From: a virus
Strand: one strand, 5' to 3'
DNA: 64,000 nucleotides
Virus record (IMG/VR): IMGVR_UViG_3300003690_000002
Coordinates: 1 to 64,000 of that record
Position 1 is the first letter of the stretch, and every line of letters begins with the position of its first letter. A program made the position numbers and the translations under genes. The notes under the pieces are model-generated. The model saw nothing but the letters and a program-made list of their open reading frames with translations, was not told where the DNA came from and made no database searches. Positions 3,988 through 57,144 of this stretch are shown here, piece by piece.

Positions 3988-3996
3988 AATAATTAG
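3988..3996 (-). promoter_or_regulatory. Candidate late promoter element (CTAATTAT type)
   Basis: The minus strand reads CTAATTAT here, preceded by T rather than the usual A, 37 bases before the ATG at 3951. It follows directly after the hairpin terminator at 4003-4043, so transcription would stop and restart here. It is one of nine intergenic copies of the motif ACTA(T/A)TTAT. Confidence 0.5.
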
Positions 3997-4002
3997 AATA
4001 AT

Positions 4003-4043
4003 AACTATAAAATAAAAGCCGAAATATTAAATATTTCGGCTTT
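4003..4043 (-). terminator. Hairpin terminator after the tail-chaperone frame
   Basis: A perfect 13-base inverted repeat (arms 4015-4027 and 4031-4043, AAAGCCGAAATAT with its complement) encloses a TAA loop. On the minus strand the stem is followed by TATTTTATAGTT. It begins 22 bases after the TAA at 4066-4068. The symmetric A/T flanks mean it could also act on the plus strand, but no plus-strand gene is present. Confidence 0.75.
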
Positions 4044-4065
4044 ATATGGGTATTTTTAATATATA

Positions 4066-5134
4066 TTAGCGTCTTTGTGATGATTTACTCTTCGCTTTTT
4101 TCATAATTTTATCATGTTGCTCTTTTTCTTGTTCAAATTGCCTAGTCAGCCGAGCAACAAACCACTCTCTTATTGGTAGTGGTAAATTATATGCTTCAAA
4201 AAAGCTCCATCCGCCATAATATTTTAATAAAAAGAATTGTTCATATACACTTTGAATATATTCATCCTTTAGGCCAAAAAAAGTCTGCCGTAAACGGCAC
4301 CTCCATTTCTTGCTCTACATCACATTCTAAACATTCAAAATTTTGTGTTAGGTCTATATTTGGCACAATTTTACTGTAAGTTTCTCTTAAGTATTTTGCA
4401 TCAGATGCGGGCATATTATCAACAAATGAATGGACTGAGTTGCCATCGCTATGACCATTTACAGAAACAATCATTAATTTAAATTGATCTGTAACGGCTG
4501 ATTCTGGCAATTTATGCTTTTTTCTTTTTTCCATAAGTTGCAGTAGCTTTTTTTCATCTGTGCCCAACAACATTCGCATTTCAACATCGACTTTGGATCT
4601 TGGAAGTTTGAGCAAGTAAGTTCCATCGTCTGTTAATGTTGTGCTGTGTTCTTCAAGGTTTTCATCGCCATGCACAATTTTTCCACTGTTTAAATCAAAC
4701 TCAAACTGGGAAGATGCACCACAATTTGGGCATGTAACTTTTGTTTTATAATCGGCTCCATAGCCCGTAATTCTTGCAGCTACCAATATTGCATTTTTGT
4801 CCCCAACTAGAAGATTACTAATATTTATACCTTTATTAACTATAATATTTTGCAAAAACCGATCAACAGCCAAACCTTTTCTTAAAAGTGGCTTCGATGT
4901 TAAAATATCTTCATCTTTTGCTGTCATAAATCGAATCTCAACAGTATCAATCCTGTGTAAAGGATGACCTTCAGGATAAAATCTACCTTGTGATGGTAAA
5001 TCTACAAACTCCGTTGGAGTTGCAAAAGAAAATGTTGCTTGTGATTCATTTTGAGTGCCAGCTAACACTTCAGGTGGAAGAGCGCCAGTATCAGGAGTTT
5101 TGGCTCCGATACGCTCATCATTATTTCTGTTCAT
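4066..5134 (-). CDS. Frameshifted long form of the tail-assembly chaperone
   Basis: The gene at 4262-5134 can be extended by a +1 (or -2) shift on the T7 run at 4276-4282. Reading then continues from GGC at 4275 to TAA at 4066, adding 69 residues for a total near 355. The added frame has no ATG, GTG or TTG near its beginning; its only ATG is close to the end. Yet it encodes protein-like sequence, with segments such as YYGGWSFFEAYNLPLPI and a Lys-rich C-terminus. Its place between tube and tape measure matches the G/GT genes of lambda and E/E' of P2, whose long forms arise by frameshifting and act as tail-assembly chaperones. The alternative is a homopolymer error: with six Ts the gene would be one continuous frame. 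Confidence 0.6.
4262..5134 (-). CDS. gp26-like baseplate/tail-assembly protein, zero-frame product
   Basis: This 290-residue protein starts at an ATG with AAGAGG upstream. It begins with a flexible segment, then a conserved-looking region from about residue 35 (FVDLPSQGRFYPEG, then a KPLLRKG segment). Two cysteine pairs, CPNC near residue 135 and CLEC near residue 273, probably form one split zinc ribbon. This layout fits the T4 gp26 (T4_baseplate) family as I know it. The position just after the tube gene and before the tape measure also fits a tail-assembly chaperone. The zero frame ends at TGA 4262-4264, a few codons after the slippery T run. The family call is moderate and the exact function is inferred. 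Confidence 0.65.
   Translation of the reverse strand: MNRNNDERIGAKTPDTGALPPEVLAGTQNESQATFSFATPTEFVDLPSQGRFYPEGHPLHRIDTVEIRFMTAKDEDILTSKPLLRKGLAVDRFLQNIIVNKGINISNLLVGDKNAILVAARITGYGADYKTKVTCPNCGASSQFEFDLNSGKIVHGDENLEEHSTTLTDDGTYLLKLPRSKVDVEMRMLLGTDEKKLLQLMEKRKKHKLPESAVTDQFKLMIVSVNGHSDGNSVHSFVDNMPASDAKYLRETYSKIVPNIDLTQNFECLECDVEQEMEVPFTADFFWPKG
4276..4304 (-). promoter_or_regulatory. Probable programmed frameshift signal
   Basis: On the minus strand the order is GGAGG (4304-4300), a hairpin TGCCG-TTTA-CGGCA (4299-4286), then GAC and seven Ts (4282-4276). The zero frame reads TTT TTT TGG; the next frame reads TTT TTT, skips one T, and continues with GGC. An internal Shine-Dalgarno-like sequence and a hairpin upstream of a slippery run are recognised stimulators of bacterial frameshifting. 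Confidence 0.55.
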
Positions 5135-5156
5135 TAAAACCTCTTAAATTATTATA

Positions 5157-5762
5157 TTAACTTCCTAAACTAAAGAATTTACCTTTGCCATTCATCTCTG
5201 GATCTGTCGAGATATTTGCTTTGAATGAACCAACATTTAGTTCAGCCCAGTCATACCTTACCGTACATTCAATTTCAGATAGCCCATCTTCTTCATAGCT
5301 TAGTTCACTAAACGCCACTTTAGAAAGCCATGCGTTTTTTAAACTCCATTTCTCAACATCATCTCCATTCGAGTCGATTTGACGAATTATAATGTCTCCT
5401 AGTGATTTAATTGCTTTTCCTTTCGACATTGTAGTAGTATCATCAGCATTAACTGGAGGGTGATACCCAGCAGCAGTTATAATAGCCGCCATATTTGCGG
5501 ATGCATTTGGAGTAACAGGATCGATTAAAGTAAAGCTAACTTCCTCCCATGTAACTCTCCCAGGATAGTAAAAGGTATGGTTAATATATGCATGTTCAGC
5601 AGCGTTAATTGACAAAGTAGGTTTGCCTACCTTTTTAACGATCCATTGGTCGCCTGTTGCAACAACATTTAACAAAAATCTAAATGCTCGTTTTGGATCT
5701 CTTATTGGATTATTTGCGCCATCAACTGTTCTTGTCCAAAAATTTGGGGATTTGTCTGCCAT
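5157..5762 (-). CDS. Tail tube protein (gp19-like)
   Basis: This 201-residue protein polymerises into the inner tube through which DNA passes. The N-terminal half carries features of the T4 gp19 family: an early FRFLLNV strand, KKVGKPTLS, and a following FYYPGRVTWEEVSFTLIDPV segment. The C-terminal half has a Glu/Asp-rich strand pair (ELSYEEDGLSEIECTVRYDW). Its length is close to the 163-200 residues usual for this family. It lies immediately downstream of the sheath gene, as in T4, and has a strong AAGGAGT ribosome site. A candidate late promoter (5790-5797) lies 27 bases before the ATG, fitting the high copy number needed. Confidence 0.9.
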   Translation of the reverse strand: MADKSPNFWTRTVDGANNPIRDPKRAFRFLLNVVATGDQWIVKKVGKPTLSINAAEHAYINHTFYYPGRVTWEEVSFTLIDPVTPNASANMAAIITAAGYHPPVNADDTTTMSKGKAIKSLGDIIIRQIDSNGDDVEKWSLKNAWLSKVAFSELSYEEDGLSEIECTVRYDWAELNVGSFKANISTDPEMNGKGKFFSLGS

Positions 5763-5788
5763 TATTTTTACTCCTTCTGTCCTTCATA

Positions 5789-5798
5789 GATAAATAGA
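5789..5798 (-). promoter_or_regulatory. Candidate late promoter element before tail tube
   Basis: The minus strand reads CTATTTAT at 5797-5790, ending 27 bases before the tube ATG. The surrounding gap (5763-5832) is very AT-rich and otherwise holds only the ribosome binding site. Confidence 0.55.
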
Positions 5799-5832
5799 TT
5801 ATAATTTAAAAAATTTAAAAAATTAATTTTAT

Positions 5833-8781
5833 TTAATCTGCAAATGCTGCCCCTTGGTTTGTAATTGTAAAGTCAAGTGCTATAAATTCAATTGCTTTAG
5901 CTGGTTTCAAATATACCCGTGCATACATGATATTTCTATCAATTAAGTCAGGAGTTGTGGTAGTTTTATCTAAAACAACTTTGAAGTCCACTAAGCCAAA
6001 ACCAGCTTTAACGCTACCTAAGAATGGCTCAACTTCTGACAAGAAGCGATCCCAAGTAACTTGAATATTTTGATCAAATAATAGCCTCGAAGCCATTCTT
6101 GAGACCTCTTTTTTAACAAAGATCATAAGCCTGCGAATATTAATTCTGTCAAGCGCTGACGAGCGCGCTTGTAAAGTTTTTTGTCCAAAAATTACAAGCC
6201 CTTCGGCGGGGAATGAAGCAATTGGGTTAATATTTGCCTCATAGAGATCATCTCTATTATCCGCTGTTAGCTTATCTCTTACGTTTGTAACTGCTAAACC
6301 TGCAGCCCCTTCGCTTAAGCCGCCTCTTGTAAACCCAGCGGGTGCAAACCATAACGCTGATTGCGCTTCCGCACTTCCAAGGACTCCAAGTGCCACTACA
6401 GACGGAGGTACCCAAACCATAGCTCCGTTAATTCCATCTCGAATTTGGACCCATGGATAATAAGCGCACCCATAACTAGAATCTAACTCACGAGTCTTAA
6501 GGTTGTTGACTGCCGTAGCTACTGTCCCGACTCTATTCGTTAGCGTTGAATTTGTTTCATACTGTGTTTCAAAACCAGAATCAATATCGATTATGGCAAG
6601 AGCATCGCCACGATCTTCACAAGTATTAATTAAGTGCTCTGTTAATTCTGAATTCCGCATGCCGGGTATCGTTGCAACATTAAATTCAACAACTTCTGCA
6701 TCAGAAATTGTATCAATTGCTCTCTTAATTGAATAATACTCATAGCTCGTTAATTCATCACCAGAAATTTGATTCTTTTGAAATGGTTCTTTTTCTACAA
6801 CGTCTAGCCCATCAAACCCACCAAACATTACCGTTGTAAATTTATTGAACCCTCTATCAAGGACGCTTTGATAGCCCCCTGAAAGAGCATTGACCGAAGT
6901 ACCGGCGCCGTGGCTACCGGAATCATAATACATTACTGCAGCCCCAGGCTCGTTTGAACTAGCACTAAGATCATCCATAGTAAATAAGTATTGATATCCA
7001 ACTTTACTATCAGTTTCGGCATCGATTGAGTCTGTGAAGGCACGAATTTGATCTAGTGTACTATCGTCAAAGCGTTGGCTAGATCCCGACCTTGTTAAAT
7101 CAACCCCGAAATAAGCATTTTTCTCATTTGACAATCCGCCCGCTTTGCTGCTTGCTCTTAGAGGAAGTGCTGGGAAGACAAATGAGGCTGTGTAAGCTGA
7201 TTTCTGGCTGGTTTCGGGCTCTCCGGAGGACCCGTAGTACCCACCGGCAGCACCAACGGAGACAAAATTTTCATCTGCCACGCCAAAGGATTCGTTTCGT
7301 GCGCCGCCAGCAGCATAAATGTCATCTGCACCTGCGACCAGCGTCGAGGCGGCGGCGACGACGGTTCGATCCATACCAGCGCCATCAGTTGGAAACGAAT
7401 TTCCACTTAAAATTGTAAAACCATTAAACCTTGGTGGCCCATAGACACCCCAAGGAAGCGCTTCTGGATTAATCGTTCCAGCGTCAACATCTTGGTTCAG
7501 TTCAACCCGAACAAACTTCGACAGGTTTGGATGATTGCCATATTCTCTATATCTCTTATCCGTATCGCTCCAAACAACATGCGAGTCGCCTATTTTCTTA
7601 CCAACAAAATCCATTGAATGCGGATTTAAATTGCATTGCGAGAATCTTTCTATAACTTCCAGTCTATTATCTGTATCTCTTAAAGATCTTATTGTCAGCG
7701 TAAATGATCCATATTTATTGGTATGTGGAGTTTGTGATGCTTTAAGATTTTCAATTGAAATCTTAAGATTATCTTGATTCCATCGTCCAGTGTCTTGAGA
7801 CACAATACGGAAAAGTTTTTGCTGTGATAGAGCCTGGAATCCAGATCCAGAGACTGTAACAAGGTCTTGTCCAATAAACCATCCGGTTTTAGATGAAGCC
7901 ATTTCGCTGTTCATGTTGCCATGGTGATCAGATCCGCTAACTAGCGCAAGAATAACTCCATATTGCTGTCCAGCGGTAGAACTAGTAACATATTGAGCAA
8001 GCGATCTATCGTACGATTCACCAAGCCAATAAGATTCTGTATTGGCAGCTGTTGTAATATTGCTATTTGTTAAAGTTGGATTTGTATTAAAAACTTTTCT
8101 AATGTATTTCTGAGAGTTTCTATTAAAATTAAATGTGTAAGTCTTCGTACTGTCGCCGCCTTTATCAACGACAACTTTAAATTGTTTATCAACACCCGCT
8201 GACTCAATCAAAATAGCGGTACCTTGAGCAGTAATAGAGGCTGTATTGTCGGCTCTTGCGTTCCCGGTCAGTTGTACGCTTCCGGTGTTTAAATACCAAA
8301 CTGCAGCAAGAGAGCCTGTATGGTTAGCGGTTCCGCTCACAGTGGTGTCTTTTTCTACAATAAATAATCCATAAGCACCACCATTTGTAGGCTTAGCAGC
8401 TGTCGGCGAGAGGTTCGTCGCCCAACCTGCGTTACCTGCGTCGGCTCTACCACTATGGTGAGCACCTAAAAGCCTAATAACTGATACCGGATTATTATTT
8501 GTTAAGTATGCCTGCGCTGCATATGCTGCGTAAGTAGGGGCAATAGTATTTCCATTTCTCCACAAATCATCTCCGGAGCCACCAGCTACTGGTTCACCAA
8601 ATATTTCTATAAATTCAGAAAAGGAACTAACAATCACTGGACGCATCGCTGGTCCACGCGCTGTTCTACCAATAACAAGGGGTCCCATTCTCGCTGGGGC
8701 GTTTGGTAACTGGCTATTATCAATTTCATTAATAAAAACACCAGGTGAAACAAATTTAAATTTTTTCACTGTCTCAGACAT
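5833..8781 (-). CDS. Contractile tail sheath protein (gp18-like), enlarged
   Basis: This 982-residue protein is well above the 659 residues of T4 gp18. The N-terminus has the sheath signature: SPGVFINEIDNS, then a GPLVIGRTARGPA strand region. The conserved C-terminal third includes GCAYYPWVQIRD, a segment with VPPSVVALGVLG, and a final NIRRLMIFVKKEV domain ending in strands that exchange with neighbouring subunits. The extra length lies between about residues 120 and 600 and should form surface-exposed domains. Within it, the stretch around 7140-7400 is visibly richer in G+C than its neighbours. The sheath contracts on infection and drives the tube into the cell. It precedes the tube gene. 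Confidence 0.92.
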   Translation of the reverse strand: MSETVKKFKFVSPGVFINEIDNSQLPNAPARMGPLVIGRTARGPAMRPVIVSSFSEFIEIFGEPVAGGSGDDLWRNGNTIAPTYAAYAAQAYLTNNNPVSVIRLLGAHHSGRADAGNAGWATNLSPTAAKPTNGGAYGLFIVEKDTTVSGTANHTGSLAAVWYLNTGSVQLTGNARADNTASITAQGTAILIESAGVDKQFKVVVDKGGDSTKTYTFNFNRNSQKYIRKVFNTNPTLTNSNITTAANTESYWLGESYDRSLAQYVTSSTAGQQYGVILALVSGSDHHGNMNSEMASSKTGWFIGQDLVTVSGSGFQALSQQKLFRIVSQDTGRWNQDNLKISIENLKASQTPHTNKYGSFTLTIRSLRDTDNRLEVIERFSQCNLNPHSMDFVGKKIGDSHVVWSDTDKRYREYGNHPNLSKFVRVELNQDVDAGTINPEALPWGVYGPPRFNGFTILSGNSFPTDGAGMDRTVVAAASTLVAGADDIYAAGGARNESFGVADENFVSVGAAGGYYGSSGEPETSQKSAYTASFVFPALPLRASSKAGGLSNEKNAYFGVDLTRSGSSQRFDDSTLDQIRAFTDSIDAETDSKVGYQYLFTMDDLSASSNEPGAAVMYYDSGSHGAGTSVNALSGGYQSVLDRGFNKFTTVMFGGFDGLDVVEKEPFQKNQISGDELTSYEYYSIKRAIDTISDAEVVEFNVATIPGMRNSELTEHLINTCEDRGDALAIIDIDSGFETQYETNSTLTNRVGTVATAVNNLKTRELDSSYGCAYYPWVQIRDGINGAMVWVPPSVVALGVLGSAEAQSALWFAPAGFTRGGLSEGAAGLAVTNVRDKLTADNRDDLYEANINPIASFPAEGLVIFGQKTLQARSSALDRINIRRLMIFVKKEVSRMASRLLFDQNIQVTWDRFLSEVEPFLGSVKAGFGLVDFKVVLDKTTTTPDLIDRNIMYARVYLKPAKAIEFIALDFTITNQGAAFAD

Positions 8782-8841
8782 TCTTCTGTAATCTCCTGTA
8801 CTATTTGATATTTTTTACAAAATTCTACTTTTTTGTTCTTA

Positions 8842-8850
8842 AATAAATAG
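8842..8850 (-). promoter_or_regulatory. Candidate late promoter element before sheath
   Basis: ACTATTTAT-type element: minus-strand CTATTTATTT starts at 8850 and is preceded by A. It ends 61 bases upstream of the sheath ATG, inside a 121-base AT-rich gap that shows no other gene. Confidence 0.5.
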
Positions 8851-8902
8851 TTGTAAAGTTCTTCAAAATCCTCTTTAAAATTTAAAATTAAAAATCATTC
8901 GA

Positions 8903-10214: not shown

Positions 10215-10220
10215 GCTTTG

Positions 10221-11486
10221 TTATCCTACAAACACTTTTAATGGAATTCGTTCTTGAATTTTGTTAACAGAATCTGCAAGAGCCGCATCGTTTTCCATGA
10301 GCTTATTATATATAAGGTCGTCTAAAACTTCTTTTAATTCATCTCTAAGAGCTTTTTGCTCTTCCTTGGATTGTGTTATTAAATCTGCGCCATTCAAAGT
10401 TACAGATTCTCCAGGAATGGGAATTGCTCCAAATTTACTTCTTATATATCCAAGCATCTCCTTGCACAAAGCCAAAGCAAATCTACGAATCCACTGTTTG
10501 CCAATGGAGTTTATATTTTGATAAGGAAGATTCTCAAAAGGTAACGTGTTCATGTTATTAATACCCAATACTCCTGCCTCGGAATTCCCAGACTCTTCCC
10601 ATGGAGTCTCATCCATAAAAAAGTGAATCCAAAATTTATCTGGACTTGCATCAACAGGGCTTGGATATAATCTTATTTTATTATTTTTAAGTTCATATGA
10701 ATAGTGTGAATTTCGTGTATAAATTGCATCTTCAAAAGCCATAGCTTGCGCTTTGTTTTGCCATGCGGGGATAACTTCAAAAGTCGAGTCATCTGCAAAC
10801 TGCCCATAGCTTGCCAAATCACCAACTGTATTCAAACCGCCATAATAGCCATAAAATCTCCACATTGCATGCGGCGTTTTATAAAAAACATTTGAAATAT
10901 TAATTCTTTTGTTTTTCACCTTGCCATAATATTCTACAGATGAACTATATGCAGCACTAGAAGAAATAATTGTCTGCAAATCATAGTCTTGCACACCTTC
11001 TGTAACATCAAAAGAAGCAGAATATATTGTTTTTTCTCCACCAAATCCTGCCTCGGTTGACATAGCCATAGAAACACGGCGAGCATATGCAAATTCGAAT
11101 CTTGGATATCTTAAAGCTATGTTTGAGCCTGACAATGTTTCGCCACTTTGTATTTGACCATCTTCGTCAAATGATCCGGTGGGTGAGCCCAAAAGATCTG
11201 ATAGAACATTTTTTGATTGATGTATATTGACAATATAGGAATATTCTAATACTGACTCTTCATAAGCAGTATAAACTTGTTCTTTTGTCAATTCAACATC
11301 TAAAACATCTCCACCAAGTTTTTTATATGTATAGGCAACTTGATCTGCTGCCCCTGAAAGAAAATATGAATCGCCCTGATAAATTCCAAAAGGAAGTGCC
11401 GCAGATGCTACCGAACTTACTAAACTCGAAGATGGTAAAGTAATGGCACTAGTTTGCGATGCTGGATTTAGAGTTGGTACAGCCAC
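10221..11486 (-). CDS. Neck / head-completion protein (gp13-like)
   Basis: This 421-residue protein starts at a GTG preceded by GGAGGG. After a Ser/Ala-rich N-terminus it has a helix containing LTKEQVYTAYEESVLEYSY, a pattern I associate with gp13-type neck proteins. A mixed region with aromatic strands follows (MWRFYGYYGGLNTVG). The C-terminal helical part carries LPYQNINSIGKQWIRRFALAL and a coiled coil near KEEQKALRDELKEVLDDL. T4 gp13 is 309 residues, so this form is longer. It is the first gene after the major capsid gene and its terminator, and has its own candidate promoter 20 bases upstream of the start. Confidence 0.6.
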   Translation of the reverse strand: MAVPTLNPASQTSAITLPSSSLVSSVASAALPFGIYQGDSYFLSGAADQVAYTYKKLGGDVLDVELTKEQVYTAYEESVLEYSYIVNIHQSKNVLSDLLGSPTGSFDEDGQIQSGETLSGSNIALRYPRFEFAYARRVSMAMSTEAGFGGEKTIYSASFDVTEGVQDYDLQTIISSSAAYSSSVEYYGKVKNKRINISNVFYKTPHAMWRFYGYYGGLNTVGDLASYGQFADDSTFEVIPAWQNKAQAMAFEDAIYTRNSHYSYELKNNKIRLYPSPVDASPDKFWIHFFMDETPWEESGNSEAGVLGINNMNTLPFENLPYQNINSIGKQWIRRFALALCKEMLGYIRSKFGAIPIPGESVTLNGADLITQSKEEQKALRDELKEVLDDLIYNKLMENDAALADSVNKIQERIPLKVFVG

Positions 11487-11505
11487 TAGCTAAAGCCCTC
11501 CGTAC

Positions 11506-11515
11506 AATAAATAGT
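11506..11515 (-). promoter_or_regulatory. Candidate late promoter element before neck genes
   Basis: Minus-strand ACTATTTATT lies immediately after the T-tract of the capsid-gene terminator. It ends 20 bases before the GTG of the gp13-like gene. A terminator directly followed by this motif is good evidence that the motif restarts transcription. Confidence 0.6.
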
Positions 11516-11518
11516 CTT

Positions 11519-11561
11519 GAAAAAACAAAACCCCATATCAACGAATGTCAATATGGGGTTT
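11519..11561 (-). terminator. Rho-independent terminator after major capsid gene
   Basis: A perfect 11-base inverted repeat (arms 11528-11538 and 11551-11561, AAACCCCATAT type) encloses a 12-base loop. On the minus strand the G-rich arm runs into TTTTGTTTTTT. It starts 24 bases after the capsid stop codon. It would isolate the very highly expressed capsid gene from the neck and tail genes. Confidence 0.9.
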
Positions 11562-11585
11562 CTTAAAAAATAATTTAGATTACTA

Positions 11586-13340
11586 TTAGCCGAGTAGATC
11601 AGCAACAATAACCACGCCGTACATATCAGGTCGAACCATCTTCTTCGCATACCGGGTCATAACTCCCTTACGAGGTACGAAATCTTCCGTACCGAAAATG
11701 GTGGGTGTAACCTGCAACGGTACATAAGGAGCATAAACGTAGCCGCTTTCAAGGAAGCTACCGCCCTTACGTCCAACCAGGACAACATTTCGCGGGAAAT
11801 ATGGGTCAACCCAAACGTCCCACTTCTTGCTGAGATTACCGGTTTTCACTGCACCTACAACACCCCTATCATCGTCAGCAGTAATGTTTGCGCGGAAGCC
11901 ACTAGTGAATTCCAAAACATTAGCAACCTCGGGGGAGACAACTAAGAAGTTGGCGCCGCCACGAAGAGTCTTACGATGAATCTGTGCGGATACATCATTA
12001 ATGGTTTCTACCAAAGTTTCATACCACTCTGATACTGTACCAGTAAAGTCTGGGTACAATGTCCCATTAGTCGACTTACCAGTGGTTTTATCTAAGAACT
12101 TACCTGGCTTGCGAGACCAGTAGTAAGTTGCCGCTTTAGCATCTTTCATCAAATCTTCAAGAATCTCACGGTCGATTTCGAGAGCAATGTGCTCTGAAAG
12201 GATACTTGTAAGCTCAACCTCTGCGTCAAGATTATGATAAGCATTCAAATCTTGACCCAATTCCGGTGTCCACTTAGCTTTAAGCTTCTTGGTGATTGCA
12301 GTGACGGACACTGAATCAACTTTGATGTCAAGTTCTGGAATATCTCGATTATCTTCGAGACCCCAACTAGTTTGACCAACAACGGCTCCAAGAGCATTGT
12401 TGCTACTAGCAGCTGGTGTGCCACCAAAATCATCGGTTAACGCAAACTTAACACCTGCATGCGGTATATCGTTGGTTGCGAAAGAGTATACCGTCTCAGA
12501 TCCTGTTGCTGCAACAACAATAAACAAAGTAGGATCTGATGGACTAGACGTACCACTAACAGTGGTCAACCTACGAATTTGTCTACCATCAACAATAGTG
12601 TTGCTAAAGTCAATAGTAACCAAGTTTGTCATGTTAAATTGATCAAATACTGTAGAAGCGGTCACAACTGTATAAATAGCCGCAACAGAACCAGACAAGT
12701 CCGGATCCCATCGAACAATACTATTCGCTATTTCGCTATCCATCGCAGCGTTGGCTTCAGCTTTCCAGTCGGTTCCACCGACCGTTCCACTAGCGTAAAT
12801 ATTCAAGAAACATGTTGCCGATCCGGTTGGAGACGAATAGCCTTGGTTTAATGCGTAAAAGCCCAATTGACTTCCAAGCGTTCCACCAATATTCATACCG
12901 CCAGTGATTGCCTGACCGACCAAATTATTGTCATCTCCATCAACGCCGCCGTATACCGAAGACGCACCATTTACCCCAAGACCACCTGGGGAAGCAGTAT
13001 ATTGGAAGTCCAAGAAGAACAGTAGCCCAGACGGCAAGCTCATTGGCTGTACCGATACCAGGTTGTTTGCAATCAAACCGCCGAAAACTCGACGAACGAT
13101 TGGAAACGCCACTGCCGCAAAACCTTCAACATCACCAGGGCTCGTAGAACCCATTGTTGAAGCCTCTCTTAAAAGCTCTTTTGCTTGATTTTCAAGTATG
13201 CGAGCCATGTTTTGTCTTTCGTAATCGTGTATGAGACCTTCTAAAAGTCCAGTTTGTTCCCACTTATCAAGTAGGGCTGCCCCTTCCTTTGACAGGTCTC
13301 TGTTAACGATTCCTTCTGTTAACTTTTGTAAAACAGACAT
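11586..13340 (-). CDS. Major capsid protein (gp23-like)
   Basis: This 584-residue precursor is HK97-fold by family. The clearest signature is at about residues 75-110: FPIVRRVFGGLIANNLVSVQ and the following MSLPSGLLFFLDFQY. A central insertion (about 115-300), rich in Gly, Ser and Thr, makes it longer than T4 gp23 (521). The second half has the expected ERK-type helix region (EHIALEIDREILEDLMKDA) and a C-terminal strand region (YVYAPYVPLQVTPTIF). T4 gp23 is cut after an (L/I)-x-E motif; here L57-R58-E59 before Ala60 is the likely gp21-type cleavage site, just ahead of the mature domain. Codon choice in this gene looks more G+C-rich than its neighbours. It follows the scaffold gene by 16 bases. 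Confidence 0.93.
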   Translation of the reverse strand: MSVLQKLTEGIVNRDLSKEGAALLDKWEQTGLLEGLIHDYERQNMARILENQAKELLREASTMGSTSPGDVEGFAAVAFPIVRRVFGGLIANNLVSVQPMSLPSGLLFFLDFQYTASPGGLGVNGASSVYGGVDGDDNNLVGQAITGGMNIGGTLGSQLGFYALNQGYSSPTGSATCFLNIYASGTVGGTDWKAEANAAMDSEIANSIVRWDPDLSGSVAAIYTVVTASTVFDQFNMTNLVTIDFSNTIVDGRQIRRLTTVSGTSSPSDPTLFIVVAATGSETVYSFATNDIPHAGVKFALTDDFGGTPAASSNNALGAVVGQTSWGLEDNRDIPELDIKVDSVSVTAITKKLKAKWTPELGQDLNAYHNLDAEVELTSILSEHIALEIDREILEDLMKDAKAATYYWSRKPGKFLDKTTGKSTNGTLYPDFTGTVSEWYETLVETINDVSAQIHRKTLRGGANFLVVSPEVANVLEFTSGFRANITADDDRGVVGAVKTGNLSKKWDVWVDPYFPRNVVLVGRKGGSFLESGYVYAPYVPLQVTPTIFGTEDFVPRKGVMTRYAKKMVRPDMYGVVIVADLLG

Positions 13341-13356
13341 TTGTTAATTCCTCCTA

Positions 13357-14391
13357 TTATTTCTGTTTAATTCCTGCCAAAATTTGCATCCTATCCGCGA
13401 ACGAATTGGATTGTTTTACCTCCCGACGAGGCAAAAACGCCGAAGAGCGTTTATTAACCACTTCATTTAGTGATTTTGGTGCTCTATTTGAAGAAGCACC
13501 TTGTATTGCACTTTGAAGGGTCTCAAAGATTGTTTTTGTCTCTTCAACTGAAGTTGATTTTGTAATAGTTTCGACAATTTTATTTTTTTGTCGCTCATTC
13601 AAGGAGTCGCTATTCAAAATACGATTTGTATATAATAGTTTTGCATTTGAAAGATTCACTTTATTAAGCTTTTTCTTTAATTGCAAAGCTAAATTTTTAA
13701 ATTTTTCATTTTCCTCTTTCAAGTCTTTATATTTGCTTGAAAGTTCTTCTAATGATCGTTCGGCTGCAGAGCTTTCATCGGTTTCTTCAACCAGCTCTTC
13801 TTCTTGTTCTTCGGAAACTAACTGTCCTGTATTAATATTTTTAACACGGCGCCCTGGCTCTTTTCCGGTAGCGGTATCTGATGTTTTTGTCGCTTCTTCA
13901 AGTTCCTCATCATCCTTTTGGAGATCAAGCATGCCTTCTAATTCTTCCTCGTTTAATTCCACTTCCTCATCGACATCTTCTACTACTTCATCTAGAATAT
14001 TTTGTAGCATTTCTTCATCAATTATTACACCTTCTTCTAATTCTTCGAGTTCTTCACCTGCAAACTCTTCTCGATCTGCCATTTCTCCTGCCTCCAATTC
14101 TTCTTCGGCTTCTAGCCGTTTAGAAAGCTCATCAAAATCTATTTCAATCTCTTCTTCATCATCTGGACAAGGGCAAAGCTCTTCTCCGTCTGTTGCAGCC
14201 AAAGGTACTTGCTCTGCAAATTCGCCCTCTTCTTCATCAGTGGGAAGTTCTTCATCTTGTTCTAGCAACCTGTTAACAGCTTCTTTAATATCTTTTGAAT
14301 ATTTTTCAATCACTGCCAGTTCGGCGTTTTTAATGGCGGCATCTTTAAGCGCGTCTGCATCAATAATGGCTTGTTCAAGCAATCTAGACAT
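13357..14391 (-). CDS. Prohead core scaffold protein (gp22-like)
   Basis: This 344-residue, very acidic protein lies directly upstream of the capsid gene, the place of gp22 in T4. Residues 45-210 are dominated by Glu and Asp with few aromatics. Residues 215-300 form a Lys/Glu coiled coil (SSKYKDLKEENEKFKN). The C-terminal 40 residues are basic with RKQS-like segments (PRREVKQSNSFADRM). That bipolar, acidic-plus-coiled-coil make-up is typical of scaffolding proteins that fill the prohead and are then digested by the protease. N-terminal L-L-E and several later L-x-E sites would suit gp21-type cleavage. An odd CPCP pair lies near residue 75. A candidate late promoter stands 34 bases upstream. 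Confidence 0.75.
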   Translation of the reverse strand: MSRLLEQAIIDADALKDAAIKNAELAVIEKYSKDIKEAVNRLLEQDEELPTDEEEGEFAEQVPLAATDGEELCPCPDDEEEIEIDFDELSKRLEAEEELEAGEMADREEFAGEELEELEEGVIIDEEMLQNILDEVVEDVDEEVELNEEELEGMLDLQKDDEELEEATKTSDTATGKEPGRRVKNINTGQLVSEEQEEELVEETDESSAAERSLEELSSKYKDLKEENEKFKNLALQLKKKLNKVNLSNAKLLYTNRILNSDSLNERQKNKIVETITKSTSVEETKTIFETLQSAIQGASSNRAPKSLNEVVNKRSSAFLPRREVKQSNSFADRMQILAGIKQK

Positions 14392-14424
14392 TTATAAGCT
14401 CCTATTTAAATCATTTTTGTCTTA

Positions 14425-14434
14425 AATAAATAGT
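14425..14434 (-). promoter_or_regulatory. Candidate late promoter element before scaffold/capsid
   Basis: Minus-strand ACTATTTATTT at 14434-14425 ends 34 bases before the scaffold ATG, in a 78-base gap. It would drive scaffold and major capsid together up to the terminator at 11519-11561. Confidence 0.55.
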
Positions 14435-14469
14435 ATGATATTTGGTAAAATCCCTTATTAATTAATAAA

Positions 14470-15801: not shown

Positions 15802-15815
15802 TTATAAATAATCTC

Positions 15816-16211: not shown

Positions 16212-16235
16212 ATTTGTCTCCTATTCTTCTTCTAA

Positions 16236-16469: not shown

Positions 16470-16492
16470 TTTTTTATTATTTCCTTTTTACC

Positions 16493-16915: not shown

Positions 16916-16920
16916 TGCTA

Positions 16921-17532: not shown

Positions 17533-17535
17533 TTG

Positions 17536-18569: not shown

Positions 18570-18578
18570 AAACCCTCT

Positions 18579-21875: not shown

Positions 21876-21878
21876 CGT

Positions 21879-25959: not shown

Positions 25960-26187
25960 TTATCTCCTATTAAATATTGCCAACAAAACTCCAACAGCTA
26001 CAAGACCTACAAGCCCCTCACTGCCCAAACTTTTAGTAACAGCAACAACGTTTCCAACAACATCTACCGGAAAAAATGGCTGCCCGGTGCCAAAAAGTAC
26101 CTGTGCAACTATTGCCAAAGCAAGAATTGCAATCCCCGCCTCTGTTAATTGTTTCATAACTTCAACCGTTTTTCTTAACCATTCCAT
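25960..26187 (-). CDS. Two-helix membrane protein, possible holin/antiholin
   Basis: The product has 75 residues with a very strong AGGAGGC ribosome site. It has two membrane helices, about residues 17-33 (AGIAILALAIVAQVLFG) and 53-72 (SEGLVGLVAVGVLLAIF), joined by a loop with FFPVDVVGNV. Both ends carry charge and the tail is NRR. Similar short two-helix proteins occur in many marine T4-like phages near lysis or fibre genes. It has its own candidate late promoter 20 bases upstream and heads the downstream membrane-protein block. A holin role is inferred. Confidence 0.45.
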   Translation of the reverse strand: MEWLRKTVEVMKQLTEAGIAILALAIVAQVLFGTGQPFFPVDVVGNVVAVTKSLGSEGLVGLVAVGVLLAIFNRR

Positions 26188-26206: not shown

Positions 26207-26216
26207 TATAAATAGT
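26207..26216 (-). promoter_or_regulatory. Candidate late promoter element before membrane-protein block
   Basis: Minus-strand ACTATTTATAA ends 20 bases before the ATG of the 75-residue membrane protein, in a 42-base gap. It could drive the lysis-like block and perhaps the terminase and portal genes beyond. Confidence 0.5.
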
Positions 26217-32828: not shown

Positions 32829-34037
32829 TTAAAAGTCTAATTTTAATTTAAACGTATATTCATCATTTTCTTTTTTACGAAGAGGTGTAGCTAGCTTAGC
32901 TATAGCAATTAAGTTTCTATTTTCATCATAAACTCCAATTTTACTTATATAAGTTTGTTTAACAAAACTTGAGCTATAGCCAGAATATGAACTACTTTCT
33001 ATATTTTTAATAGTAGTGCTTCCTGTTTCTGAATATGTAAAACTGCTTGTTTCTGTAGTTAAAGATTGTCCCTGTGCAACGTATGTCATGTTGCTTGAAT
33101 GATTTAGTTTTCCTCTTGGTGCGTGTGCGAACATTGTAACGGTGGGAATATAGCTTGTTCCTTTAAAAGATAAACTAAAACTTGAAGAAGCTGCCGCCGC
33201 AGTGCCAGATATTGTTTGCGCAAAATATGTCCACTTTGGTGCTTCGACTGATGATATCCCCGACCCCGATATGTATATGTCATTTGATTGTCCCGATGAA
33301 AGATCCCAGCTTCCTGTGAGAAAAATAAACCCTTCATTATATAATACGACACCTGCAACAGAACCTGGTCTATTTGAGCCAGTCGTCTCAATTAATTCCC
33401 CATTCCCATTTTTATCCTGAAGTTCTCCCAGCAAGGTTCCTGTTAAATAAAACTTTAAATTTACTGAACCTTTTTTAATCATGGAGCCATAAAATATAGA
33501 TGGTATACTTATTAATCCAACCTCTTGTGTTGATTTGTCCCACCCCCGACCTATAGATGACGAATATGCATAATGTGGTGTTAATGGTTTATAAAAATTT
33601 AATGTATTTCTTAATGCTTTAATATATCGCCTAGTAGTATCTGATGTAAAAAACAACTCTTTTGTAATATTGGCTACCATCGGATAACTTCCAGTGATTT
33701 CATCACCATAGGCGAAATCGGAATTAAAACTACCTTTCGAAACTGTGGAAAAAGAGGTTAAACTTCCCTGTTTTGTGACAAAAGGGTATACTAGTGTTTT
33801 AGTCCCCACTCCGGTAGATGGGTTGTATAAATGACCGATGGAATCTCTATTGATGTTTATCTCATGTAAACTAACTGCTCCGGCTTGAGCCATAAGTGAA
33901 GATGAATTGTATGTACCGCTTATATTATATTTATTATTATAATAAGTTGAACCACTATAAAAATAAAATTCTAATCTCGGGTACGCTTTTATACGATTAT
34001 GAAAAATATCATTTTTTTTAAACTTATAATAGGGCAT
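32829..34037 (-). CDS. Virion protein, paralogue of the next gene upstream
   Basis: The product has 402 residues, rich in Ser, Tyr, Thr and Gly, like phage fibre or baseplate components. Its C-terminus (about 360-402: YISKIGVYDENRNLIAIAK, then a 'PLRKKENDEYTFKLKLDF'-type ending) closely parallels that of the 376-residue product at 34105-35235. A central 'I-P-x-x-x-Y-G-x-x-I-K-K-G-S' stretch also has a counterpart there. Both probably belong to one structural family that arose by duplication. The exact place in the virion is unknown. A candidate promoter (34080-34087) precedes it by 42 bases. Confidence 0.5.
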   Translation of the reverse strand: MPYYKFKKNDIFHNRIKAYPRLEFYFYSGSTYYNNKYNISGTYNSSSLMAQAGAVSLHEININRDSIGHLYNPSTGVGTKTLVYPFVTKQGSLTSFSTVSKGSFNSDFAYGDEITGSYPMVANITKELFFTSDTTRRYIKALRNTLNFYKPLTPHYAYSSSIGRGWDKSTQEVGLISIPSIFYGSMIKKGSVNLKFYLTGTLLGELQDKNGNGELIETTGSNRPGSVAGVVLYNEGFIFLTGSWDLSSGQSNDIYISGSGISSVEAPKWTYFAQTISGTAAAASSSFSLSFKGTSYIPTVTMFAHAPRGKLNHSSNMTYVAQGQSLTTETSSFTYSETGSTTIKNIESSSYSGYSSSFVKQTYISKIGVYDENRNLIAIAKLATPLRKKENDEYTFKLKLDF

Positions 34038-34078: not shown

Positions 34079-34088
34079 TATAATTAGT
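34079..34088 (-). promoter_or_regulatory. Candidate late promoter element (CTAATTAT type)
   Basis: Minus-strand ACTAATTATAA lies in the 67-base gap between the paralogous virion genes, ending 42 bases before the downstream ATG. It would serve the 402-residue protein and the resolvase-primase-nuclease block. Confidence 0.45.
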
Positions 34089-35255: not shown

Positions 35256-36203
35256 TTAATATTTTTTAATATATCGTATAGGAACATCAATTGAGTACCC
35301 AGTCGTAGCTCCTGAAATTTTTACAATCGTATCAATATAATAAACATTTGTGCCTGAAAATGTTGTTGTATCTGTTCCGCCGAGTTGAGTAAATAAATAA
35401 GTGCTTGTATTTAACTCAACAGAGGCTCGTACTTTAAATGTCATATATGTCCCTCTAGGTCCAGCTATGACCTGATCGGCTCCCCCTTCGGTTGCGCTGC
35501 TGCCATCTCCTGTTTCTGAATTATTATATACTAATCCGCTAGTCCCTAGTGAAAGAAAATAACTTGCAATGTTGTCATCATCAATAAATGATATCGGTGC
35601 GCCATTGCCAGCGATGTCGACAATACTGCCTAATCTATTATCCATTTCAACAATATATTGTCGCTCTTCTAAATCTGCATCAATTTGAAATTTTGGAGAA
35701 ATAGCTGTTGTGTCAAGCCCTTGATCAAGTCTTATATATGATACTGCCCCTGTGGCTCCTGGAGCTTCGCCGTTTAATACTCCATTAGTGCTGTTGCCTT
35801 TTACGTTTGCGTCGCCATATGTCTCTTGGTCAACACAAACAACAAATGTGCTCAAAGTAGAATGTCTTTCCGCTGCGCTGACATTGTCGGTCCCGGTAGT
35901 TCCATATATTTTAAGAACTGGAAGATATAATAAATTTGTGCGTGGAATAGAGATTAACTTAGATTTCATTGTCGAAGTGTTATTTGTAAATGCTTCCAAT
36001 ATCGGCGTTTGCAAAATCTCCAAGTCATAATATGCACTACCGCTCGAATGAGACTTATTATATGTACCATAATCAATTTCGTCATCACCAAAAGCGTATT
36101 TTGCGATCTTAAAAGAACCGTCGCCTTTTGCTAATCGAAATCGTCCGGTATCTGTTAACACTGCATCTAAAATAATATCACCAGAATTGTCCAAAAATGC
36201 CAT
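35256..36203 (-). CDS. Virion protein, N-terminal domain shared with 43052-44068
   Basis: The product has 315 residues. Its N-terminus, with LTDTGRFRLAKG and then IAKYAFGDDEIDY, aligns with LTQHGKYLLSLG and then LYYAFFDDDIIYD in the 338-residue product at 43052-44068. Both therefore share a roughly 50-residue attachment-like module followed by unrelated or strongly diverged beta-rich bodies. The body has Thr/Ser/Gly-rich strands and ends in SIDVPIRYIKKY. I know of no function for the family; such genes are frequent in large marine phages near fibre genes. Confidence 0.5.
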   Translation of the reverse strand: MAFLDNSGDIILDAVLTDTGRFRLAKGDGSFKIAKYAFGDDEIDYGTYNKSHSSGSAYYDLEILQTPILEAFTNNTSTMKSKLISIPRTNLLYLPVLKIYGTTGTDNVSAAERHSTLSTFVVCVDQETYGDANVKGNSTNGVLNGEAPGATGAVSYIRLDQGLDTTAISPKFQIDADLEERQYIVEMDNRLGSIVDIAGNGAPISFIDDDNIASYFLSLGTSGLVYNNSETGDGSSATEGGADQVIAGPRGTYMTFKVRASVELNTSTYLFTQLGGTDTTTFSGTNVYYIDTIVKISGATTGYSIDVPIRYIKKY

Positions 36204-36223: not shown

Positions 36224-36233
36224 AATAATTAGT
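36224..36233 (-). promoter_or_regulatory. Candidate late promoter element (CTAATTAT type)
   Basis: Minus-strand ACTAATTATTA fills most of the 31-base gap after the 972-residue gene and ends 21 bases before the next ATG. Confidence 0.45.
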
Positions 36234-44068: not shown

Positions 44069-44095
44069 TTATTAATATGTTTCCTATCCCTTGGA

Positions 44096-53797: not shown

Positions 53798-55314
53798 TAT
53801 TGTTCAACCCTAAATGAAAACAACTCCGACTGCTCGTGGTATGAATTATTAATATAATAAACAAATTTAATTCCATACTGATAATCTGGTTCTAATAGCT
53901 TCATATCTAAATCAAAATAATTTCCAGATACGTCAAAAGAAGTTTTTGTATAATTTGTGCTGCCAGAGCCATATTCTATAACATCTTTATCGTCAGAAAT
54001 TCTAATTATTTTATAATATGCATTATCAATTGTTGTTCCCGTTATAACCATTGTAGCTTTTGAATAAATTGTTGGGTTCCAATTTTTTTCTCTAATATAA
54101 AATCTAAATCTTGCATTTTCATCTTTATGATAGGTTGATTTAAGATTGGTGCACGCCGTAACAAATTTTGGGCTTGGATTATATCCAGAACCTAGTAAAA
54201 CGTCTGGAAAAATTGAACCACTATAATATTCTACACTAGCGCTATGCCAGACATCATTAAGTGTAATTAATGGGGTAGCTGTAGCAGTGATTGCCAACGA
54301 AGCAGAATAAGTTCCAGTTGTTACATATCCACCAGTAATATTTGTGTTACCATCATAAAGATATAATTTTGATCCAGATGGGGTTGTTGATCCAGAATAT
54401 AAACTAACTAATATCGTACCTGTATCCACACCCGGAATATTTTTCAATTGCCCTCTGACATAGTTATAAAGATATAAAGTATTTAAATTATCAGCTGCTG
54501 AAGCTAGTGAGCTACTATAGTAAAAATTACCCCTATCGTCTTGTGTCGAAGAATCCCATTGTGCCTCAATTACTGGTCGTTTATAAAAATACTCCGTTCC
54601 TTTTCCAAAAAATCTTTTTGTATAATAAGATCTTGATGCGCCTGTTACATTATGAAGAACATATTTGCTAGTACCTGATCCTGAGTTTTCTCCGGTGGAA
54701 CTTGAAAAATAAGCTTCATGACTAGCAGTTAATTTTATTAAAATGCCATAATTTGTTTTTGAACCCAGAACGTTTCCGGTGCTATTAACCCACTGTTCAA
54801 CCAATTGTGTAATATCAACTTCTAGATCTTCAGTTCCATTAAGAAATGACATTTCAAAAGATGAAGACGCATCAACATATACATCTGCTCCTGCCGTTAC
54901 CCACGATACGTTTTTTGAGGCTGTTAGCCAATTTGATAAATCTTCATCTTTATATGTTTCCATGTCTAGACCAAAGCCTTCACTCCAAGACGTCGAAACT
55001 GCGTTGACAGTTGCTTTAAAATCTTTAGGTAAAGTTAATGAATGTTCAGCATTATATAACTTTAAAATAAAATTAACGCTTCCGCTCGCTGGAATGGTAC
55101 TGCTAAGCCTATCTGTTGCAATATCAGCAGATGGGAATTGTATCAGAACTCTTGCCAATTCAGCAGAACTAGTATTTGCCTGTGCGTAAATTGAAAAAAT
55201 TTCCAAAGTATCGGAAGCGCCCATATTCGATCCTGTTCCCCGAGTAGATAAATTTGACTTATACGCATTTGTTATTGTATTGTCTTTGTTTGCTATATAT
55301 CTTTTAATAGCCAC
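53797..55314 (-). CDS. DNRLRE-like virion protein next to baseplate wedge genes
   Basis: The product has 505 residues and starts at a GTG that overlaps the gp6-like stop (TAGTG). The first 220 residues resemble a DNRLRE-type beta-sandwich: MAIKRYIANKDNTITNAY, then LEIFSIYAQ, ARVLIQFPSADI, and a later DITQLVEQWV plus NYGILIKL. This pattern occurs on surface and virion proteins. The second half is Tyr/Ser/Thr-rich with many strands and a C-terminal YINNSYHEQSELFSFRVEQ. Its position between gp6-like and the giant wedge/fibre protein suggests a baseplate component, perhaps anchoring fibres. Confidence 0.5.
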   Translation of the reverse strand: MAIKRYIANKDNTITNAYKSNLSTRGTGSNMGASDTLEIFSIYAQANTSSAELARVLIQFPSADIATDRLSSTIPASGSVNFILKLYNAEHSLTLPKDFKATVNAVSTSWSEGFGLDMETYKDEDLSNWLTASKNVSWVTAGADVYVDASSSFEMSFLNGTEDLEVDITQLVEQWVNSTGNVLGSKTNYGILIKLTASHEAYFSSSTGENSGSGTSKYVLHNVTGASRSYYTKRFFGKGTEYFYKRPVIEAQWDSSTQDDRGNFYYSSSLASAADNLNTLYLYNYVRGQLKNIPGVDTGTILVSLYSGSTTPSGSKLYLYDGNTNITGGYVTTGTYSASLAITATATPLITLNDVWHSASVEYYSGSIFPDVLLGSGYNPSPKFVTACTNLKSTYHKDENARFRFYIREKNWNPTIYSKATMVITGTTIDNAYYKIIRISDDKDVIEYGSGSTNYTKTSFDVSGNYFDLDMKLLEPDYQYGIKFVYYINNSYHEQSELFSFRVEQ

Positions 55315-57116
55315 TATTTAATTGTTCCTTGTATATCAATGTTTGAAAATTTAAGTTCAATAACTGTATCATTTGGCACTATTAAATATCTTCCATCTTG
55401 GGATAAATTTTCTTCAATATCAAATGCCATATCTGAATAAGTTCCACCATATTTTCGTGTTATTTGAACCTTTATTGTATCAATAACTCCTGGAACCCTG
55501 TTTATTACTTGATATAGGTCTGTTAAAAAAACTGATTCACCTATATCAAATGGAGTTCTAAAATAATCGTTTATAGCATCCGATATACTGGTAAATATAC
55601 TTTGTTTCCCTGCTGTTTGGTCGCTTAAAACAACAAAGTTTATACCGATATTTAATATTCTTGTATCAAGTATGTCTATTGTATCATTAATCATTTTACG
55701 ATCATTAAGCCATATTTTTAGATTATTTTTTAGCACAGTATTTGATTCAACAAAATTACCGAATGCGTTTTCTGAAATTATATATAATTTTAAATTTCTT
55801 TTTGTTGAATCTGTATCTTGTACTATAGTACAACGCTTAATTGCCCCGAATTTTGTTGGCATCCTATAAACCAAAGCTACATAATCCTGAGCGGTGACTG
55901 CTCTATTTTGTGCAGCATGGACATTTAATATTCTTTGTTTCATCTCTTCGGCGGACATCAAAGTAACATTGCCGACAACAGGTTCTTCGTTTGTCACTTC
56001 CAAAGAACCGGCTACATCGCTTGTTTTAGATGTATCTAATACAGTATCAGTTGCAAATGAAAATCTTGGCTCAGAAACTGTTGTTACAGAATTGATAGCA
56101 GCATTAACATTAGTTGCTCTGTTCCTTCTATAAACAACCCTTAATGCTGTATTTGAGGGAGATACTCCTAATTTATCTGACGACAATAGATCTGATGGAT
56201 CAAACGACTCGTTAGAAAAATAGTTTTTTGCATGTCTTTGTAAAACTACATTTGCAGGATCATTAATGGTTTCACTATTTATTTCTGAGTCTGACCCGTG
56301 CCCAAATTGTAAAAATGTATTAGTTCTTGTTTGTTCAACAACAAATCTCCTTGGTACAGGCAACGGCTTCAATATTGACCCTGCTTGTTCTTTGGTGTTT
56401 GTATCGTAGTTTGTCACAGCTATATAAACAACATCCTGAGATAGATATTCTACTTCAAAGTATTCATGCCCCTCTGAGTCAACAACGGAAAGAACTTCAG
56501 AAACATTAGAAGAGCCTAGACTAATTCTTAAAAACTTTTGGAAATCACGAACAGTCACTATCTCAGTAACCAATTCTCCTGAAACGGCGTTTCCATATGC
56601 TTTAACTGCATAATGTGTTGGAGCTTGCGTTCCCGAGTCTACCCTAGCAACTATAGTTTCATTTGCTGTTTTTGAAAAATCAACATCTTCAATAAGCGTA
56701 TACATATTGCTTGGTGAAGCGAATCTGCTGCCAGCGGTTAATATTGGAATATAGTTTGTGTCTGGCGCTGTACCAAATGAATCTGCTGGTATTAAAATAT
56801 AAAATGCAAGTCTTCCATATGCTGTCATATTTTGAGAATATTTAAAGCCGATTTGTTTTCCTAATTGAATGATATTATCAAATTCATTTGCTGTATCTAA
56901 AAAATTTTCATTTGCTTGGAAATCTAAATAAAAAGATAGCATATCTCCAACATAAGAAACAAGATCTATCATTAATGATCCAAAAGAAGCTTCATTAAAA
57001 TCTTTATATGTGTCCGGGTAATATCTCTTTGTATAATTTAATAAATCGTTTTTTATGCTATTAAATTCTCTGTTTGTGTACTTAATAGCTTTTCGTGGTG
57101 ATACTCGGTCAACCAT
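55314..57116 (-). CDS. Baseplate wedge protein (gp6-like, J-family)
   Basis: The 600-residue product forms the dimeric ring that joins wedges around the hub. N-terminal signature: YTNREFNSIKNDLLNYTKRY, PDTYKDFNEASFGSLMIDLV and a helix with SFYLDFQANENFL. Together these are typical of T4 gp6 of marine T4-like phages. The C-terminal half carries the Baseplate_J pattern, with AVTAQDYVALVYRMPTKFGAI, NRVPGVIDTIKVQITR and a final strand region. The length is near that of T4 gp6 (660). It is 23 bases after the gp25-like gene, as expected for a gpW/gp25-gpJ/gp6 pair. A candidate promoter lies 19 bases before the ATG. Confidence 0.9.
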   Translation of the reverse strand: MVDRVSPRKAIKYTNREFNSIKNDLLNYTKRYYPDTYKDFNEASFGSLMIDLVSYVGDMLSFYLDFQANENFLDTANEFDNIIQLGKQIGFKYSQNMTAYGRLAFYILIPADSFGTAPDTNYIPILTAGSRFASPSNMYTLIEDVDFSKTANETIVARVDSGTQAPTHYAVKAYGNAVSGELVTEIVTVRDFQKFLRISLGSSNVSEVLSVVDSEGHEYFEVEYLSQDVVYIAVTNYDTNTKEQAGSILKPLPVPRRFVVEQTRTNTFLQFGHGSDSEINSETINDPANVVLQRHAKNYFSNESFDPSDLLSSDKLGVSPSNTALRVVYRRNRATNVNAAINSVTTVSEPRFSFATDTVLDTSKTSDVAGSLEVTNEEPVVGNVTLMSAEEMKQRILNVHAAQNRAVTAQDYVALVYRMPTKFGAIKRCTIVQDTDSTKRNLKLYIISENAFGNFVESNTVLKNNLKIWLNDRKMINDTIDILDTRILNIGINFVVLSDQTAGKQSIFTSISDAINDYFRTPFDIGESVFLTDLYQVINRVPGVIDTIKVQITRKYGGTYSDMAFDIEENLSQDGRYLIVPNDTVIELKFSNIDIQGTIK

Positions 57117-57134
57117 ATTGTAAAAGCTCCTTTA

Positions 57135-57144
57135 TATAATTAGT
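57135..57144 (-). promoter_or_regulatory. Candidate late promoter element (CTAATTAT type)
   Basis: Minus-strand ACTAATTATAT overlaps the stop codon of the gp25-like gene (57140-57142) and ends 19 bases before the gp6-like ATG. AAAGGAG lies between. The overlap with a stop codon weakens the case. Confidence 0.4.

Follow-up and report, generated by a model that had tools for sequence, protein, structure and literature searches.

A candidate two-part late promoter and a gp55-like sigma with an additional domain in a T4-type virus and its uncultured relatives

The repeated element and its placement

The stretch of DNA analysed here (the window) comprises bases 1-64000 of the 186,398-base virus record IMGVR_UViG_3300003690_000002, which is probably complete, since its first 51 bases recur at its end. 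According to simple script-made gene calls, 204 of the 205 genes of the whole record lie on the minus strand, which is the coding strand of the window. An initial annotation of this sequence drew attention to a repeated element, CTA(T/A)TTAT, and proposed it as a late promoter with a consensus unlike that of T4, read by a divergent gp55-type sigma. The analyses reported below indicate that the element is very probably the start signal of phage late genes and common to many uncultured relatives, and that the same genome encodes a gp55-like sigma. The nine copies noticed in the window were all located on the coding strand, and are listed here together with the sequences found at the -35 position of three of them (PWM, position weight matrix score; aa, amino acids).

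3989-3997, minus strand: -10-type element TCTAATTAT, 37 bases before the 111-aa gene 3616-3951; weak PWM, 6.5
5790-5798, minus strand: -10-type element TCTATTTAT, 27 bases before the tail tube gene 5157-5762 (tube by PHROGs); PWM 8.8
8843-8851, minus strand: -10-type element ACTATTTAT, 61 bases before the tail sheath gene 5833-8781 (sheath by PHROGs); PWM 13.9
8865-8871, minus strand: -35-like element GGATTTT, 13 bases before the sheath -10 element
11507-11515, minus strand: -10-type element ACTATTTAT, 20 bases before the neck gene 10221-11486, just after a terminator-like hairpin
11529-11535, minus strand: TGGGGTT at the -35 position; belongs to the end of the terminator-like hairpin and matches weakly
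14426-14434, minus strand: -10-type element ACTATTTAT, 34 bases before the start of the scaffold-type gene 13357-14391, and also upstream of the major capsid gene 11586-13340 (capsid by PHROGs)
14448-14454, minus strand: -35-like element GGGATTT, 13 bases before the scaffold/capsid -10 element
26208-26216, minus strand: -10-type element ACTATTTAT, 20 bases before the gene 25960-26187
34080-34088, minus strand: -10-type element ACTAATTAT, 42 bases before the gene 32829-34037
36225-36233, minus strand: -10-type element ACTAATTAT, 21 bases before the gene 35256-36203
57136-57144, minus strand: -10-type element ACTAATTAT, 19 bases before the baseplate wedge gene 55314-57116

The distance from each copy to the next start codon, 19-61 bases, was the same with the new gene calls as in the initial annotation, and an A again precedes seven of the nine copies. 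Two copies, at 11507 and 3989, do follow hairpin-plus-T sequences, as judged by eye. The placement of all nine copies in gaps holds for eight of them, while the copy at 57136 overlaps the last bases of gene 57140-57547. The estimate of about 1.2 kb of intergenic DNA has to be revised, as 2,637 bases of the window, 612 of them at its left end, are non-coding by the script-made calls. The expectation of less than one copy in this DNA proved correct: shuffled gaps contained on average 0.41 copies and at most 4, and none of 2000 shuffles reached the nine copies observed on the coding strand, compared with zero on the other strand. Six additional coding-strand copies lie inside genes of the window. 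Its total of 19 copies (15 on the coding strand, 4 on the other) is not enriched over whole-window shuffles (mean 12.8; 6 of 100 reach 19), and we therefore discarded whole-window counting as an uninformative measure, the enrichment being confined to the gaps.

When strand and position were scored across the whole record, as the initial annotation had suggested, the coding strand carried 27 copies, 14 of them in non-coding DNA, and the other strand 7 copies, none of which is non-coding (18,512 non-coding bases; Fisher p = 5e-8). The late-type sites are densest in the virion block, with 10 in the 2,696 non-coding bases up to 72.9 kb. A host-type signal, TTGACA-17-GATAAT, showed 19 non-coding matches on the coding strand versus 3 on the other, one place being counted with two spacings; it occurs only above 72 kb, in the region of small early-type genes, and forms a separate class of predicted early-type promoters. 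Three large virion-type genes at 57647-72682 (minus strand; 3170, 512 and 988 aa) are without a clear late element upstream.

Conservation in relatives and anatomy of the sites

A search with the major capsid protein returned at least 594 related IMG/VR stretches, of which 80 loci (948 kb) were kept. Related sequences are present in all counts, and pruning was carried out at 60%, 50% and 45% flank identity. On the capsid-gene strand of the 80 loci, the motif has 159 non-coding and 46 coding occurrences, compared with 3 and 2, respectively, on the other strand. A de novo search in 420 upstream regions of these relatives, referred to below together with the phage as the clade, yielded ACTATTTAt, with an estimated occupancy of 0.66 and a log-likelihood ratio (LLR) of 1050. 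As controls, the same script recovered TATAAATA from T4, tATAAaTA from S-CAM1 and CTAAATA from Aeh1, and the T4 and Aeh1 motifs match those given in the consulted part of the published account (PMC1524935). The corresponding motifs were aTATTTAt in Flavobacterium phage immuto and ATATTTATA in Microcystis phage Mel-JY01; neither of the two de novo runs brought out a clear late motif in LR756508. The first of these runs, in which the ribosome-binding region was left untrimmed, was set aside because it returned Shine-Dalgarno-like signals in T4, S-CAM1 and Mel-JY01, and the search was repeated on trimmed regions. On the phage's own genome the trimmed run gave as best motif cTTgA.AattT, which is the -35 of the early promoters, because both promoter classes were pooled.

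Specifically, ACTATTTAT was present in 12 of 12 whole records, 3 of which also supplied training loci, with 111 copies on the coding strand versus 2 on the other; the reversed pattern, used as a control in the same records, gave 24 and 45. In the 16 held-out loci that remained of the second set described next, the de novo motif was ACTATTTAtt (occupancy 0.44 of 119 upstream regions, LLR 152). The first held-out set (L099-L178) lies around gp55; the second consisted of 20 loci around clusters of motif copies, 4 of which were dropped for 40-mers shared with the training loci, and includes a different region of a training record (L202). The literature search, which extended to open-access papers, yielded no published account of this motif or of the clade's late promoters.

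The alignment of the relatives' sites showed a purine 13 bases past the first A of the element in 0.90 of 104 non-redundant, hairpin-free sites, and in 0.94 of 66 sites following stricter pruning. Taking this purine as the putative +1 position places the element at -13 to -5, which is the T4 late register, and would put the start of the sheath promoter at 8838 and that of the scaffold/capsid promoter at 14421. As in T4-type late promoters, a conserved AT-rich element at -13 to -6 is followed one turn downstream by the presumed start; in place of the TATAAATA consensus the sites read ACTA(T/A)TTAt.

In addition, a second signal, which had escaped the initial annotation, begins exactly 20 bases before the element (-20 to -14 relative to it), reading approximately G-G/T-C/A-N-TTT (GKMNTTT). 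It is weaker than the -10 element, from which it is separated by a constant 13 bases, and it occupies -33 to -27 in many relatives' sites, a departure from the T4-type late promoter, which has no conserved -35. The related pattern RKHHTTT occurred at -20 in 42 of the 104 hairpin-free sites, versus a mean of 1.45 at other offsets, and in 24 of 66 and 11 of 37 sites after stricter pruning. This pattern was picked after inspection of the same sites, and the fair test is a matrix trained on them and applied to held-out loci: there the -35 matrix peaked at exactly -20 (1.09 versus a mean of -3.26, sd 0.90, max -0.60). A peak at -20 was also obtained in the phage's own genome (0.09 versus a mean of -3.05, sd 0.96, max -0.12), in which the clearest cases are GGATTTT of the sheath and GGGATTT of the scaffold/capsid promoter, with others at 148203 and 157810. 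The matrix showed no -20 peak in T4, Aeh1, S-CAM1 or immuto (n 9 to 24), and was tied between -20 and -21 in Mel-JY01. The motif, its strand and placement, and the fixed signals at -35 and +1 are all direct results of computation.

Sites with any predicted hairpin were excluded from the -35 count, since some -35 signals are terminator ends. The filter (folding energy of -6 or below) also flags 0.60 of 320 coding windows, so that it serves to leave out hairpin-like sites and is not a means of detecting terminators. Several relatives' sites (among L009-L088) have a terminator-like hairpin end with its T run exactly at -33 to -27, as if one stretch served as both terminator and -35 element. Eight of the upstream regions in immuto (L097, L184) have in common a GTTG located some 20 bases ahead of TATATTT, after which comes tatcaataattaaa or a close variant of it; these repeats form a second promoter class, probably one of a host sigma.

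Compared with known late promoters, the AT-rich element of these sites (8-9 bases, at -13 to -6/-5) keeps T-11, A-10, T-7 and A-6 of T4, and differs from it by C at -12, T/A at -9, T at -8 and the additional -35-like element. The published Aeh1 late promoter, CTAAATA (quoted portion of PMC1524935), recovered here by the same de novo method, has C at -12 and the same register, and differs in having A at -9 and -8 and no -35 signal. Aeh1 therefore shows that the family tolerates an altered TATAAATA consensus, and because of the shared C and register the motif is, by this comparison, not foreign to the T4 family. The immuto and Mel-JY01 motifs differ in having mostly A rather than C at -12, with a -35 that is unclear in immuto and ambiguous in Mel-JY01.

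The gp55-like sigma, the clamp and the replication polymerase

The initial annotation had proposed looking for a gp55/gp33-like gene elsewhere in the genome, and a gp55-like gene was located beyond the window:

72002-72682, minus strand: gp55-like sigma, 226 aa; phrog_234, E 7e-5; one in this genome

IMG/VR contains 293 stretches related to this protein, and 80 of them were kept. Homologues in immuto, Mel-JY01 and LR756508 share 27%, 31% and 33% identity with it, while cyanophage late sigmas match far more weakly (E 0.3-0.8), and Sigma70_r2 reached E 0.09 only. The sigma-2-like domain is related to gp55 both by phrog_234 and by structure: for a relative with 73% identity, the model (pLDDT 81) gave T4 gp55 in its promoter complex, 7d7c_F, as first structural match (Z 10.6, 119 residues).

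According to PMC7892883, the pockets of T4 gp55 that receive the flipped-out bases -12, -9 and -8 contain Y97, N13/H95 and T99, respectively. The promoter described here differs from that of T4 at exactly these three positions, with T, A, T, A staying at -11, -10, -7 and -6. In the aligned clade proteins N13 is replaced by T, H95 by F and T99 by S, with Y97 retained; S is found at the T99 position in 32 of 33 sequences, and Q in immuto. S-CAM1 keeps TATAAATA yet has F at the H95 position, so that this residue does not track promoter type. With 16% identity in the alignment, these correspondences are only suggestive.

T4 gp55 ends in a clamp-binding tail, without an extra domain. The clade proteins extend by about 65 C-terminal residues, among the best conserved of the protein, and show no hydrophobic-acidic tail like SLDFLYEAND of T4. 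Modelled alone, this C-terminal domain forms three helices with a helix-turn-helix (pLDDT 90), and its best structural match was sigma region 4 of 3mzy (Z 7.0, 57 residues, rmsd 1.6), followed by hits that include DesR (6.5) as well as additional chains of sigma region 4. The sequence profile matched nothing in the PDB.

The gp45-type clamp, the activator of T4 late transcription, was searched for with phrog_223, which detected it in three of three T4-like controls (T4, Aeh1 and S-CAM1). It was found in none of nine clade records, nor in immuto, Mel-JY01 or LR756508, with the limit that a highly diverged clamp may escape the model. PF02916 (also PF09116) was dropped as a clamp test after missing the annotated gp45 of S-CAM1. 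Both the lack of a detectable gp45-type clamp and the presence of a sigma homologue with an extra domain are, like the promoter signals, results of computation.

Pol III alpha was found in this phage and in six of eight other clade records searched; the remaining two records, of 155 and 162 kb, are possibly incomplete. Immuto and Mel-JY01 gave no match to Pol III alpha. In the phage it maps to 161112-164540 (minus strand) and is of bacterial type, 1142 aa, with a PHP domain, and a 399-aa protein at 179984-181183 (minus strand) gave a partial family A polymerase match; both co-occur with a T4-type head and terminase.

Small genes directly flank the gp55-like gene, at 71706-72017 and 72675-72881 (minus strand), the one before it overlapping it. 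A similar arrangement is present in immuto (L184:7900-9256) and Mel-JY01 (L185:5634-7139). The small genes of the phage had no family match above the cut-off, and one of them could be a gp33-like or anti-sigma partner. Also beside the gp55-like gene, at 73496-78355 (minus strand), lies a sugar-nucleotide cluster (UDP-glucose dehydrogenase-like protein, epimerase, FdtA, aminotransferase, NeuB and short-chain dehydrogenase).

Reading of the sites and alternative explanations

All together, these data point to a two-part late promoter of the T4 family, read by a two-domain gp55-like sigma without a clamp, as the likely explanation. ACTA(T/A)TTAt would be the -10 part of this promoter, at -13 to -5, and the host RNA polymerase core carrying the gp55-like sigma would read it as T4 gp55 reads TATAAATA, with altered specificity at the three flipped bases (C at -12, T/A at -9, T at -8). 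The C-terminal helix-turn-helix domain, in place of the T4 clamp-binding tail, would most likely bind the -35-like element, a contact that would spare the polymerase the gp45 clamp for its positioning. Transcription initiation at these sites, its late timing, the recognition of both elements by this sigma and the dispensability of the clamp are inferences. Compared with the gp55/gp33/gp45 system of T4, the sigma family would be the same, and presumably the host core polymerase too; the differences are the extra C-terminal domain, the lack of a clamp tail and the clamp not being found. The strand-specific placement before genes, in the phage and in relatives, and the inferred purine start in the T4 register support the late promoter of unusual consensus first proposed, and the gp55-like sigma of the same genome is a fitting candidate for the divergent reader, the link between the two being presumed.

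Several observations weigh against this explanation. The simple -35 pattern was present in just 4 of 39 held-out sites, only about five sites carry a -35-like element in the phage's own genome, and the gp55-region loci L099-L178 gave just 38 upstream matches in 1.47 Mb and a -35 in none of 12 pruned instances. In immuto, whose gp55 homologue carries the C-terminal domain, GKMNTTT is missing at -20. The profile comparison with T4 gp55 alone is weak (E 0.11), and the alignment of the pocket residues, at 16% identity, is uncertain, above all for N13. Regarding the C-terminal domain, a Z of 7 falls within the tool's "possibly common" range for helical folds, Foldseek returned no significant match for its model and PF08281 did not match it. 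In addition, no clear late element was seen upstream of the 57.6-72 kb genes, and of the 31 scored sites near starts, 21 (in 15,030 non-coding bases) are located beyond the virion block. In view of the latter, the late label fits the window, from whose genes it is drawn, and may not extend to every copy.

The same data may be read as an ordinary single-element T4-type late promoter that has drifted as in Aeh1 (PMC1524935, in part), in which GGnTTTT sequences upstream are just the ends of terminators or of preceding genes and the C-terminal domain has another role. The upstream signals that clearly are terminator ends, the weakness of the simple -35 pattern in held-out loci and the missing -35 signal of immuto agree with this; the signal stays, however, at exactly -20 in the hairpin-free sites (42/104) and after strict pruning, and in held-out loci the maximum of the matrix falls on the same offset, which makes this explanation unlikely. 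Recognition by a host sigma, primary or alternative, in place of the phage protein appears clearly less probable. Bacteroidota primary promoters, TAnnTTTG, resemble the element, and immuto carries Bacteroidota-like promoter repeats; this similarity counts for a host sigma. Against it, the phage has a separate TTGACA/GATAAT class for its early regions, and the element stands in the T4 late register with changes exactly at the bases flipped by gp55.

The position of the element 19-61 bases before start codons would also suit an RNA processing or translation site. The distances to the start codon are, however, widely spread, an upstream element and a purine 13 bases downstream are fixed, and copies occur right after terminator-like hairpins, so that we give this possibility very little weight. 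Chance or the composition of AT-rich gaps, to which the unenriched whole-window count might point, can practically be set aside in view of the shuffles (0/2000), the 111 versus 2 strand bias in 12 records and the de novo recovery in relatives and held-out loci.

The closest comparable pairing has been described outside the gp55/T4 family. According to PMC8948821, the phage 7-11 sigma SaPh711_gp47 has a region 4 and bipartite late promoters (GTAAtg-16-aCTA), and phiEco32 gp36, without region 4, reads a single element. Region 4 goes with a two-part promoter there as it does here, and the present case looks like the same region-4 switch inside the gp55 family. Immuto and Mel-JY01, with the C-terminal domain on their gp55 homologue and no phrog_223 clamp, resemble the clade in these respects; Aeh1 differs in having gp45.

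Broadened to a widespread marine T4-like clade, the proposal would be that late transcription is clamp-free, that gp55 is a complete two-domain sigma (region 2 and a region-4-like domain), that the promoter keeps or has regained a -35 and that a bacterial-type Pol III alpha stands in for gp43/gp45 in replication; we put this forward tentatively, with somewhat less than even chances. If true, the split gp55/gp33/gp45 of T4 would be one derived branch, and this clade would show either an ancestral whole sigma or a return to one. A review of gp55, in the part consulted (PMC2988020), holds gp55-plus-clamp transcription to be probably general in the T4 family and reports no -35 conservation in T4; this common marine clade makes the opposite testable. 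It would also offer a natural pair of systems for how the base-flipping pockets of gp55 set promoter choice, and the promoter model could serve to divide the genes of many uncultured phages between an early and a late class.

Other features of the record were noted in passing. Matches to RNA polymerase families PF00940 (inside the terminase gene) and PF00562 (121333-121554) were both under the cut-off and regarded as chance. The host candidates are three genome bins with conflicting names. A GroEL-type chaperonin is encoded at 151254-152822 (minus strand; phrog_5725, E 9e-145) and a Mom-like DNA modification protein at 153243-154172. The record also encodes tRNA-Leu, tRNA-Ile and tRNA-Arg, and, outside the window at about 100984-101366 (minus strand; L091:2984-3366), a tmRNA with the tag ANDNVEFDYAMAA.

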